64,000 nt of DNA from Tribonema minus (lineage: Eukaryota > Sar > Xanthophyceae > Tribonematales > Tribonemataceae), in the NCBI GenBank assembly GCA_017506865.1, contig JAFCMP010000127.1, positions 124,001-188,000 on the forward strand. The letters are read 5' to 3'. The first letter of the stretch is position 1. Every line of letters begins with the position of its first letter. Shown in pieces: positions 12,701 to 57,300 of this stretch. Both the position numbers and the translations under genes were made by a program. The notes beneath the pieces were generated by a model that worked only from the letters and a program-made list of their open reading frames with translations, ran no database searches and had not been told where the DNA came from.

Positions 12701-15700
12701 GCCCTGGCCACCGCAGCTGTGTGTCGGTCGGTGGCGGCGGCCAGGGCGGCGGTGGCAGTGCTCCGCTGGCGTGCCAGGCGCGCCTTGAGCGCCCGTTTCG
12801 CGCCCTGTTTTTGGTCAGTGCACAAGATGTCAGGCGTGGACAAGTCAACGGGGTGAGTGTGCAAGTAATGACGGCAGCAGTCGAGTCAAGGGGGGACTAG
12901 TGCATACTATATATTTCCACTCGTGCTGCTGCGTGAACAATATGGCAGGCATATATTATTGGCGGCCAGGGCGGCAGTGGGAGCGCTCCGCTGCTGTGCC
13001 AGGCGCGCCTTGAGCGCCCGCTTCGCGCCCTGATTTCGTCAGTGCACGAGATGTCAGGCGTGTACAAGACAAGATGATGAGCGCACGAGTGTTGCCGGCA
13101 GCAGTTGAGGGGGGGGACTAGTGCACAGATATTTCCCTTGGTGCTGCGGAAAACAAGATGTCCGGCAAAAACAAGTCATAAGGTAAGTGCGTAAGCACTG
13201 GCGGCAGCAGTTGAGGTGGCAGTTATGAACATGTTCCCCTCATTGCCGATGCAGCTATAGTGTAGCGTTCATGTGTTGATGAAGGGGACGCTCACCCCTG
13301 CACAGGCACCTGAGTGTGTGACTCAGTGAGAAAGAGCCATGTGCGAAAGAAACCTCACCGATACTGTCATGCAAAAATAGCGCACATAGATCGGAAGTAC
13401 GAGAAGATCCTCAGCGTTGCTGAACAGGAACCCATGTAGTGACGGAGAGTTCAAGTAGGTCCAAAACTGTCTGTCTTCACGAAGTCCTGCTACATTTTGG
13501 TACCTTGTATCAGATCATGCACCCATGAGTGGGGAAACAAAGATCAATGTTTACATTGCCACTCCCATTCATGTTCACTTGCCGCTGCGGAGACATGCTA
13601 CATGTTACCTGCCCCAGAGGCGAACGCTTCAAGCAGAGGAAGGCAATGCATACGTTATAAGCACTTCAACAGAGAAGTAAGAACCGCCGGGGGGGCACTG
13701 TGTGAGCTCACCTCAGCGTGTGCAGCGGCGAGGCGGTGCTCAACCTGCATCAAGGAGTCGTCGAACGCGGCCACCAGAGCGCGTGCCGCCGCCGCACCTT
13801 GCAGTGACATTGACCCTGCGCATGGCGGGAACGACGCGACCATTTCAGTTTTTGTCGATACTGACCGTACTTGCTCTGTGGTGTGAGCGCTGCTTAGAGA
13901 GAGCCTCCTTGGTACGAGCCTGATGCCGCATGCTGCGACCATGCAGTGCAACGAGCACCGAGAGCTCTGAGCAGCAAGTGAGGGATGCAGCACCCGGCAG
14001 TGATGTGATTGTCTAGTTGTGCAGCGCTTGCTGAGCGATGCAGTGTACAGATACACTCTGACCTAGTGTGTAGCAAGCATATGTCCTGATGGCTGGTGTC
14101 ACCAGCAAAAGCACGACGTGCACGCCCATGGGTAAACCTAACCTCGGATGGTCGTCGGAGACTTCGCGCGCATGAAAGCACACATCGAGCAGACAAACCC
14201 CTCTCCTGGTTGCCATCATGCAGTCATCACCACCATACATATGCTCACAGTGGGAGTAAGGGCAAACTGCTTTGAGCGCTGCTGTAGAGGCCACTGCGCT
14301 GCCAACTGCAATGCACTCAGAGCATAGCTTGCAACGCGCACTCCCGCTGTCTCACAACTCACCGCCACATCGTACAGCAGCCTCGGCAGCGGCGGCCGCC
14401 GCCTGCGCCGTCGCCAAAGCGGCCGAAGCGGAAGCATCGCCGCTGACGCCGCCGAGCAGTGTCTTGGCGATCGAGAGTTCGTGTCGGTCCGCGGCGGCGG
14501 TCAGGGCGGTGGTGGCAGCGCTCCGCTCTCTGGCCAGGCGCGCGTTGCTGATCTTGACGACACGCTGAGCCATCTCGCGCGCAGACTCCACACTGAGGGA
14601 GGGAAAGTGGGGGGGGGGGGGGAGGAGGGGGCAGGATGAGTTGGTGGTGAGGGCTGGGTACGTCAATACACAAGAGTTGAAGTTGGGATTGGCACATCAA
14701 CAAGTGTGTCTGCTATGCTGCCACTACAAGTATGTCGCGCAGCTAAGCAGTGTTGCGGCAGCGCTCAACAAGTGGCAATGCCGTCCCTTACGATACATGT
14801 GGAGTGCGCAAAGAGCCGAAGTCGCTGCTGATCAGCACTCAAAAGTGAGTGCTGCTTAGCCCTGCTGAGAGCTGCTCTGGTGGCCACGGCATGTATGCAC
14901 TCAAGATTTGTTTTGTGATGCGGCACGGGATGCTCTGCGCAAATAACTCATCTAGCACACCCAGCACACGGCCAGTGACCACCCAACTACCCTCATTATG
15001 CTCATCACCAGTGCTCAGCAGCTCACCGTGCAGCGGCATTCTCTAAGGCAGCCACCCCCTCAGCGGCGCCGCCGTCGTCCGCGCCTGTCATGACGGCCGC
15101 CAGCGGGCGCGCAAGCAGCTGGCGCGCTGTGCCCAGGGACGCAGCCGCGGCGCCAATCGCAGTCTCCGTCTGCATCAGCATCATGTCAAAGGGTAAGAGT
15201 CGTGCTCGTCATTCTGTTCAAAAAGAGGGCACGTTGATGTTCTCTCATGTGAGCACCGCAAGACACAAACATGTTGAGCGAACAGTGGCACACATAGCGC
15301 ATTTGACAGGTTCAGGTCTGAGCGCGTTGCAACAGGGCGCACAAAGAGGCATCGCACTTAGGCTGTTGGCAAGGAGCAACTTGAAGGCTGTGCATGCAGA
15401 TGTTGCTAAACCCATGATTCCACAAACAGCCAGCGTAAGTTAGGACCGAGGTAAATGAGACCTCTTGAGCGCAAGGTGACGACTGCACTCTGTTTGCAGT
15501 GGGAAATAAAAATCCAGTGGCACCAAATTCAGGCATGGTGCACTTGTGGGAGGTAGGGTTTGGGCAAGAATGAGGGCAAGCATCAAGCCCCAGGAGAGGC
15601 ATGGTGCACTGGCAGAAGCGTTTGAACACAGAGGCGCACCCACTTACTACAAACATGAAAAGCGCGCATTACCCACTGCACGCTCAGAATACGACTCACG

Positions 15701-54300: not shown

Positions 54301-57300
54301 GCGTGGTGACGCTCCTGCCGTGCGCGCAGTGGGTGGAGTGCACTTCGCGGCGTTTCGTGATCAACAACACAGGCGGCGGAAGCTGCGCAAGCTTCCCCCG
54401 CAATGTGAACTGTAATATACCTGTGATGTGCCTTCTGCGGGCTCCTGCTGTGCGCGCAGTGGGTGGAGTGCACGTCGCGGCGCTTTCTGTCGCGCACGCA
54501 GGCGGCGGAGCTGCGCAAGCACGCGCGCGTCGAGGGCGTGACGGAGGCGCGCGCGGCGCAGCAGCGGCGCGACAAGCGCAGGCTCGCGGTCAAGGTGTGT
54601 ATGTATGCTTGTGTGTATGTCAGTTAGGGCTAGGGTTAGGGTTCGCGTCAGGGTTGGGGCCACGGTATGTGTGCTTGCTTGTTTGTTAATTGAGGTTTGG
54701 GTTTGGGCTACCTTTAGGGCAACAGAGGCGCGCGCGGCGCAGCAGCGGCGCGACTAGGGCAGGCTCGCGGCCAAGGTATGCATGTACTTCAAAGTATGTC
54801 AACTGACATTGGGGATTGGGTTGGGTTAATCTTAGGGTTAGGGTTAGGGCGACGGAAGCGCGTGCGGCGCAGATAAGCGCACGCTCGCGGCCAAGGTATG
54901 TATACATGCTTGTGTGTATGTCAGTTAGGGGTAGGGTTTGGCTTAGGCTTAGGGTTAGAGCAAAGGTATGTGTGTATGCTTGTTCGGCAATTAAGGTTTG
55001 GGTTTGAACTGGGGTGAGGGCAACAGAGGCGCGCGCTGCGCAGCAGCGGTGCGAGATGCGCAGGCGCGTGGCCAAGGTACGCATGTACGTTCGTACGTCA
55101 ATCAGGGCTAGGATTGGGGTTAGGACGACGGAGGCGCGCATGGCGCAGCAGCAGCGCAACAGGCGCCGACGCACAGCCAGGGTGTGTATGCACGTAGCAA
55201 TGTCAAGTAGGGTCAGGGGTAGGGGTTAGGGCGACACAGGCCCGTGCGAGGCAGCAGCGTCCAAGGCACATACATGTGTCCTTCAATGAGGGTCAGGGTT
55301 AGAGTGAGGCTTACGGTAAGGGGTGGGGGGTAGGGTTAGGGAAGTATTGCGCATCGGAGCGGACTCCGATCAGCTTCGGACGCTGCTGAGGTCAGCGTTA
55401 AGGCCCGGGCGGGCAGCAGCCGTACGCCAAACGCAAGCACGCGGACACTGCGTGGTGCAGCGCATGGTCAATGCGATGATGTCACATCGTTGCGAGCGCA
55501 TTCTTAGTGCGCAGCTAGGGTCAGCGGCAGGGTCCGGGCCATCGGCAGCCGCGCGCAATCACGCGAGCGCGCACGCGGCCACTGCGACGCGCCGCATGCC
55601 GCCAGTGAAATGAGGTCACATCGCTGCAAGTGCATGCGCCCCGCCGCGCCCTCGCGAGCCGCGCTCTAACCGCAACCCTAACCCTAAGCGTAACCCTAAC
55701 CCTAACCCTAACCCCCTCCCTCCCCCCCCCTCCCGGCCCAACAGGAGACCTGGCGCCGCAAGCGCAGCGCCGCGCTGGCCATCCGCAGCGTCCACCCGGA
55801 CGCCGCGCCGCTGACGCCGGGCCGCCTCGCGGAGCCGCCGGAGACGACGCGCGCCTGGCTCGACGCGCTGCTGCCGCACATCCCCGCGATCCCGCCCGCG
55901 GCGACGCCGCTGCCGCCGCTCCCCGACGCGGACCGCCGCGCGGCGTTGCGCGCCGCCGCCGCGCGCGCGCGCGCCGCCGCCGCCGACCCCTCCGTGCGGC
56001 GCTTCCTCGGCGCCGTCGCCGGCGTGTGCGCGCTCGCGGAGGAGCGCGCGGCCGCGTGGGCGCACGCCGCGCGCTGCTGCCACGCGCTTGCCGACGCCGC
56101 GGAGACGTCGCTGCTGCCGCCGCTGCTGCCGCCGCCGCGCGCGCTGGCGGCGCCGCCGCGCGCCAAGGCGGAGGACGTTGCGGTTGATGCGGACGGCGGC
56201 AGCGGCGGCGGCGGCAGCGGCAGCGGCGGCGGCGGCGCAGTAGATGCGGCGGGGGGCGTGACAGCGGCGGCGCTGGTGGTGCCGGCTGTCAAGCTCGAAG
56301 CGATGGTCGTAGACGGCAGCGAAACCGCAAGTACCAGCACCGCTGCCGACGCACTTTCTTCAAGCGATGACCAGCCGGCGGCAATCACCAGCGCAAATGC
56401 CATGGATGTTGCTGACAGCGCTGGTCATGATGCAGCAGGCGGCAGCGGCGGACAGAGCGTCGCAGCTGCGCGTGATCGCGCCGCCATCGCGCTGCCGCCG
56501 CCGCCGCTGCAGCAGCAGCAGCAGCCGTCCACGCCGCCAGTCTCACTCAAACAGGGCAGCGGCGTGCTGAGTGTTACAGCTCTGAGCGCGGGCACGCGCA
56601 GCAGCGGCGGCAGCGGCGGCCTGTGCAGCGGCGAGTGCGGCTGCGGCGGCAGCGGCGGCAGCGGCGGCGGCGGCAGGAAGCGCGCCGCGGCGAGCGTCAG
56701 CGATCCCGAAGATGCGACAGCGCTGCGAATGCTGGCGGCGCCGCGACTCGATCAGACGGTGTCCGTCGACAGCAAAGATGCGATTGTGCATAGTGCCAGC
56801 AAGGCGCCGCTGGACGCGGTCACGGCGCTGCCGCTGCCGCCGCCGCCGCGCCCCCTGTCGCCGGCGGTGGTGTACTGCAGGAGCACGGGCGCGAGCAGCG
56901 AGAACGGCAGCAGCGGCGGCGGCGGCGGCGATGGCCTCAGTGGTCATGTGTTTGAGACTCCTGTCGCGCAGTCGGTACTCAAATCTGACGGTACCGCAGC
57001 GGCAGCGGCGCAGCGCCGCGCTGCCAGCAGCTCGTCCAGCCTCGACAACGCCGACCTGTACGGTGACAGCAGCAGCAGCGGCGGCGGCGGCAGAGGCAGC
57101 GACGGCGGCGTCATTTGCACCACGAGTGTCGGCCACAGCAAGGCTGGTGTGCTGCCAGTCGCGTCGCTGCTGCAGTCGGTCGCAGCGGTTGGCAGCAGCA
57201 GCAGCAGCAGCAGTGGCGGCAGTGGCGATGGCCTCAGCACCAGCTCGCCCAGCAGCAGTGGCGGCGGCAGCAGCGACGCAGCTTGTGGCCCCATCACCGC

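Follow-up and report, generated by a model that had tools for sequence, protein, structure and literature searches.

Introduction

Transposons and slippage are the usual explanation for intron lengthening, and internal gene duplication is a frequent source of change in gene structure, through new introns or new exons. Intronic minisatellites, in which tandem units lie within introns, form a further class. In humans, alternatively spliced introns are said to have arisen from tandem arrays, recent introns lying inside repeated coding sequence, in work reportedly by Zhuo et al. in PNAS in 2007. The accessible text of two papers presents tandem duplication as an established source of new introns, in the potato RdRp gene (PMC4974935) and in Drosophila (PMC2891723); in the potato gene, an intron-exon structure was duplicated and the splice signals were reused, and a second, 83-bp duplication inside the first intron is briefly mentioned (PMC4974935). 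The present analysis concerns introns of Tribonema minus and starts from a 64,000-nt stretch of its genome (contig JAFCMP010000127.1, positions 124,001 to 188,000; hereafter, the window), which holds a HADHA gene, a KDM4 gene and a so-called giant gene. An earlier note, made from the sequence alone, had claimed that most introns of these genes contain serial tandem copies of the neighbouring exon edge, splice site included.

Such arrays very probably reflect the growth of existing introns by serial tandem duplication across splice junctions, and neither intron gain nor alternative exons. They share with the human introns the tandem arrays carrying splice sites, but are located within introns and contain incomplete exon edges. 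Where internal gene duplication produces new introns or exons, the T. minus introns are filled with fossils of junctions. Like intronic minisatellites, they contain tandem units of about 80-300 nt; in T. minus, however, the unit includes an exon edge of the host gene together with its splice site, and the working unit would be the outermost. As far as the accessible text of the potato and Drosophila papers goes, within-gene tandem duplication yields intron sequence there as well, but the events there make a new intron, whereas in T. minus existing introns are affected serially, at both ends and in many genes. No description of pervasive serial splice-junction duplication as a mode of intron growth was found among titles and abstract openings, a coverage that leaves out most subscription journals, so that prior mention is possible.

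Edge copies in the HADHA gene

Self-comparison of the window found direct repeats where the earlier note had placed them, and three-frame listings showed exon edges recurring together with their splice sites. Together with a copy search, these confirmed that the six spans offered as examples contain arrays as described. Of the "at least 20" arrays counted in the note, 18 edge arrays or array-bearing junctions were checked (7 in HADHA, 10 in KDM4 and 1 in the giant gene), not every one.

The spliced HADHA model matches "Trifunctional enzyme subunit alpha [Tribonema minus]" (P0001) with 100% identity over 92% of the query, and its next best species-named matches come from brown algae and Chrysoparadoxa, T. 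minus itself being a yellow-green alga (Xanthophyceae). The junctions of exons 1-6 agree with this published protein, from which exons 7 and 8 were positioned (tblastn). A candidate exon 7 at 37244-37276 was dropped, as P0001 places this exon further downstream. In the scoring, exon 8 was taken to start at 38840; the CAG at 38840-38842 is read as the acceptor, because the single Q of P0001 occurs in both tblastn pieces. The features are as follows.

30534..31304, + strand: HADHA exon 1 (model, P0001)
31305-32294, + strand: HADHA intron 1, GC-AG, beginning GCAAGT (consistent with P0001)
32132..32182, + strand: copy of the acceptor and 5' edge of exon 2 (working acceptor before 32295)
32295..32740, + strand: HADHA exon 2 (model, P0001)
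32924..33391, + strand: array of three copies of the exon 2 3' edge (32924-33027, 33136-33211, 33331-33391), the last two with donor GT
33730..33949, + strand: HADHA exon 3 (model, P0001)
34308..34625, + strand: two copies of the acceptor and 5' edge of exon 4 (34308-34360, 34569-34625)
34679..34867, + strand: HADHA exon 4 (model, P0001)
34919..35238, + strand: three copies of the exon 4 3' edge (34919-34997, 35044-35125, 35170-35238), the first two with donor GT
35563..35751, + strand: HADHA exon 5 (model, P0001)
35872..36448, + strand: three copies of the exon 5 3' edge (35872-35931, 36036-36077, 36400-36448), junction and GT in the first only
36554..36770, + strand: two copies of the acceptor and 5' edge of exon 6 (36554-36600, 36725-36770)
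36920..37135, + strand: HADHA exon 6 (model, P0001)
37973..38050, + strand: HADHA exon 7 (P0001)
38212..38859, + strand: last HADHA junction, with a short donor-edge copy (38212-38237) and acceptor-edge repeats (38577-38623, and 38618-38738 versus 38737-38859)
38843..39058, + strand: HADHA exon 8 (P0001)

Six of the seven HADHA introns hold a copy of their own edge at p<1e-3, and the intron at 37136-37972 has none at this threshold. The outermost junction is probably the one in use, as the note had proposed, which fits the published predicted HADHA protein.

Frequency of edge copies outside the window

The assembly holding the window comprises 158.2 Mb in 554 contigs. A sample of 35 introns from 14 genes outside the window was selected through abutting hidden Markov model matches of three Pfam families, CCT/Cpn60 (PF00118), kinesin (PF00225) and aldehyde dehydrogenase (PF00171), with splice sites placed by reading frame and consensus; a further nine abutting exon pairs, for which no junction was acceptable, were removed ahead of counting. 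All ten CCT/Cpn60 genes found were covered, and only some regions for the kinesins and aldehyde dehydrogenases. Regions were ranked by the number of exon matches and not by repeats, although the CCT/Cpn60 match table had already hinted at edge copies. For each exon edge (80 nt), a score was computed in the adjoining intron, with same-length pieces from introns of other genes as the null and a cut-off of p<1e-3; identical edges, reverse-complemented and scored in the same way, served as a control. KDM4 was excluded from the rate estimates because this gene had been chosen by eye.

The test against shuffled exon-intron pairs that the note had suggested gave an excess in this sample, with an own-edge copy in 12 of the 35 introns. 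When the seven HADHA introns are included (42 introns in all), upstream edges match in 14 and downstream edges in 10, versus 0 and 1, respectively, for the reverse-complemented edges. Three genes were then followed up: the Cpn60 gene L038 (0/4 remaining introns with copies), its paralogue L044 (5/5 remaining introns) and the C516 kinesin gene, about 50 kb from L044 (4/4 introns, one junction having a weak consensus score). This brings the total to 21 of 48 introns, a figure that is not unbiased, since it incorporates the follow-up genes, and 12/35 is the better rate. Outside the window, edge copies are thus present in a large minority of introns, and not in most. Introns with copies are longer, with a median of 751 nt (n=13) versus 440 nt for those without (n=22; p=0.01).

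The arrays are strongly clustered by gene (permutation p<1/20000), and in several genes they affect either nearly every intron or none. By self-alignment of 15 genes, the array-bearing introns number 5/5, 6/6 and 6/7 in three genes, versus 0/7, 0/5, 0/4 and 0/4 in four others; two genes are intermediate (2/4 and 1/2), and the remaining six have one or two introns each. The two counting methods disagree slightly, as one L035 intron has a copy by edge score and no array by self-alignment. Neighbouring genes may agree in array state (HADHA with KDM4; L044 with the C516 kinesin gene), the pairs being few. Guanine-cytosine content at third codon positions (GC3), considered as a cause of the clustering, shows no clear relation to it by eye across the 15 genes.

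Layout and decay of the copies

A fixed-score search of the 42 introns and ten KDM4 junctions gave 79 copies. Intron sequence is mostly copied along with the exon edge, as similarity to the 60 nt of intron next to the edge exceeds the 95% null in 50 of 69 copies. As claimed in the note, serial copies occur at both intron ends: those of the upstream edge lie at a median of 0.31 of intron length (21/31 in the near half) and those of the downstream edge at 0.84 (15/17 in the half near the end). Arrays have units of roughly 80-300 nt, and unit boundaries repeat within them (three occurrences of -118 in L044 intron 4; four of -58 or -59 in L034), which points to serial duplication of one founding unit; arrays with several boundaries represent several duplication events. 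None of the arrays is confined to the exon flanks (19.5 kb, any exon with an intron on either side entering twice), whereas 35 lie in or touch the 35.7 kb of intron.

The inner copies decay, again as the note had described. Only one of 22 indels in aligned copies keeps the frame. Mismatches between exon and copy at codon positions 1, 2 and 3 amount to.087,.072 and.140, while those between inner copies reach.177,.138 and.182, about twice as high at the first two positions. Sites at which at least three copies agree against the exon number 0, 0 and 3, and therefore fall at position 3 in 3/3 cases. This codon-position pattern and the broken frames indicate neutral copies of a constrained exon, and coding constraint on the inner copies was rejected on these grounds. 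Among copies reaching the junction, the donor GT is retained in 31/40 and the acceptor AG in 25/28, close to the expectation from their mean identity of 0.89-0.93.

Growth of existing introns in a Cpn60 pair

The Cpn60 paralogues L038 (C511) and L044 (C516) have five intron positions in common. In L038, none of the five introns holds a copy at p<1e-3 (lowest p.009), and their lengths are 357, 479, 772, 302 and 524 nt. In L044, copies are found in all six introns, of which the shared five measure 2382, 897, 1131, 865 and 823 nt. Since these five positions are shared with the copy-free L038, the introns are older than the copies, i.e., they have expanded. The two best copies in L044 intron 1 are 96-98% identical to their own exon; the L038 exon is 82-85% identical to the same copies and 81% to the L044 exon. 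The copies are closer to their own exon than the paralogous exon is, and therefore arose after the paralogues split. The sixth L044 intron (8203-8847) has no counterpart in L038; copies of both flanking edges fill it in the same expansion layout, and its absence from L038 may be a loss.

The process could run as follows. Tandem duplications of roughly 80-300 nt would arise across an existing splice junction, presumably by replication or recombination slippage, and an array once present would gain units by further duplication, often with the same boundaries. As the duplicate falls on the intron side, the mRNA would remain unchanged while the outermost splice site is used. Exon definition would be the reason why the outermost site wins, as the inner copies, being partial exons with no partner splice site, can be ignored. 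Duplications within exons would alter the protein and be purged by selection, as their absence from the sample suggests. The inner copies would then decay neutrally, with the working exon changing mainly at silent sites, and the intron would become a fossil record of its exon edge.

Several observations weigh against this account. For 19 of the 69 copies, no intron match exceeds the 95% null. The mismatch between inner copies is lower at codon position 2 (.138), and in-frame stops in exon-aligned codons are rare (3/48 copies), which the shortness and mostly young age of the copies may explain. Between inner copies (80 pairs), similarity is higher in the parts that stem from the exon (median local score 49.75) than in those that stem from the intron (26), although both should be neutral; a faster indel turnover of intron sequence may explain the gap. 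Junction-straddling duplication alone also leaves the strong clustering by gene unexplained.

Alternative explanations

Intron gain through repeated tandem duplication of an AGGT-containing exon segment, to which the earlier note had linked the arrays, is very improbable. Junctions are often AG|GT and the L044 intron lacking in L038 has copies at both ends, which speaks for gain, but in that model the intron should begin with sequence from the downstream exon and end with sequence from the upstream exon, the opposite of the layout observed. Moreover, the five introns shared with L038 predate their copies, and the L044-only intron shows the expansion layout and may be a loss in L038. That the copies serve as functional alternative or decoy exons is very improbable: the splice dinucleotides are frequently kept, but near the level given by mean identity, frames are almost always broken, and complementary splice sites at the far boundary of the copies are in no excess (15/51 donor-edge copies versus 12.9 expected; 5/30 acceptor-edge copies versus 10.4 expected). 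The copies lack the combination of acceptor and donor bounds with a kept frame that marks cassette or mutually exclusive exons. Pseudo-exon cassettes with both splice sites were hinted at by one L044 array, in which most units start after ACAG, and did not prove general. Insertion of Introners or other mobile elements would account for the motifs that recur among introns (ACTTCAA/TTGAAGT and TTAGGG-like repeats); this origin is highly improbable, as the arrays repeat the exon edge of their own gene and the edges rarely match introns of other genes, the one strong cross-gene match being that of an L038 edge with copies in its paralogue L044. An assembly artefact can be almost wholly discounted. 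Tandem repeats are hard to assemble, a single assembly was used and a few copies show exact identity with the exon across 19-53 nt; most, however, have diverged from it, with indels and as much as 24% difference where aligned, and the exon-copy differences track codon position.

A different question is whether duplication is aimed at splice junctions, for example through R-loops over G-rich intron starts or the ACTTCAA-TTGAAGT palindrome, and is not placed at random and then filtered by selection. Such targeting is possible but doubtful. Among 35 arrays (51 introns, HADHA included), 28 straddle a junction versus 15.1 expected under uniform placement, and none of 20000 simulations gave as many; 8 of the 35 come from HADHA, however, a gene picked by the finding itself. 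The excess persists when exons are removed before detection (20/28 versus 9.8 expected), but becomes marginal when all edge copies are masked (11/23 versus 7.0 expected, P=0.05). Since sequence of exon origin can be recognised for longer than intron sequence, part of the straddling excess reflects ascertainment. Three of the seven purely internal arrays have an end no more than 6 nt from a splice site. The motif ACTTCAA-N0-6-TTGAAGT has 2028 sites genome-wide versus 299 for the reversed pattern, and a looser form (CTTCAA-N0-8-TTGAAG, either order) occurs in 4 of the 51 introns, all four bearing edge arrays, but 18 of the 22 array-bearing introns have no palindrome. Targeting of junctions is thus unproven. 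It can be conjectured, with low confidence, that junctions are duplication hot spots in this lineage through a transcription- or structure-coupled process, that introns lengthen from their ends, and that genes or regions switch between compact and expanding states.

Motifs and base composition of the introns

The palindrome (A)CTTCAA-N-TTGAAG(T) is located at 35762-35777 in the window and at L044:4711 and L044:6141, and three of the four introns concerned have it 10-11 nt past the donor. TTAGGG-like interstitial telomere-type repeats are found at 37824, 44799, 44981, 54600-55350 and 55666 of the window, and in introns of the sampled genes. In the 42 introns, first halves contain 14 occurrences of TTAGGG and second halves 6, the corresponding numbers for CCCTAA being 0 and 3. 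Base composition is skewed along the intron, with G at 29% near the start and 20% near the end, and C at 37% near the end versus 24%.

KDM4, the giant gene and other repeats of the window

The identity of KDM4 is given by Pfam JmjN/JmjC matches and by three exons joining into one open KDM4-like frame; its remaining junctions are hand-annotated. With the fixed score, applied here with no null, one or more copies were found at each of the ten junctions picked by eye, the junction at 48019 having one weak copy only. Two of the ten were offset by 1-2 nt in the scoring (exons from about 48021 and about 52460). The giant gene is on the minus strand where read, alanine-rich (about 20900-21860) and has at least one junction array; Pfam scans of 10-30 kb on both strands returned no family.

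20962..21693, - strand: giant-gene array with units of ~205 nt, exon edge and donor-like GTACGT in most
47591..47675, + strand: copy of the 3' edge of the KDM4 JmjC exon and donor (working donor after 47527; hand-annotated)
47731..47761, + strand: weak copy of the acceptor and 5' edge of the next KDM4 exon (from about 48021)
48422..48460, + strand: copy of a KDM4 3' exon edge (working donor after 48154)
48739..49333, + strand: four copies of the 5' edge of the KDM4 exon starting at 49433, acceptor AG in two
49634..49982, + strand: three copies of a KDM4 3' exon edge (working donor after 49566), GT in two
50146..50540, + strand: four copies of an acceptor and 5' exon edge, KDM4 (working acceptor before 50669)
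51538..51962, + strand: four copies of a 3' exon edge and donor, KDM4 (working donor after 51451)
52055..52399, + strand: three copies of a 5' exon edge, KDM4 (working exon from about 52460)
53847..54392, + strand: five copies of a 5' exon edge, KDM4 (working exon from 54460), acceptor AG in four
54716..55454, + strand: five copies of a 3' exon edge, KDM4 (working donor after 54594), GT in four, with spacers rich in TTAGGG-like repeats

Elsewhere in the window, a perfect 70-nt tandem duplication, apparently recent, occupies 7311-7451, and a direct repeat of nearly 800 nt with 73% identity (8-783 and 3057-3817) has its copies 3 kb apart.

Significance for intron evolution

The source of much intron sequence is directly readable in T. 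minus, because the exon edge offers a labelled, slowly changing reference. The arrays can be used to date duplications and to obtain neutral substitution and indel rates within a gene, and they show how the spliceosome deals with competition among several near-identical donors or acceptors. The Cpn60 pair L038/L044 constitutes a natural experiment, with compact versus expanded introns at five shared positions.

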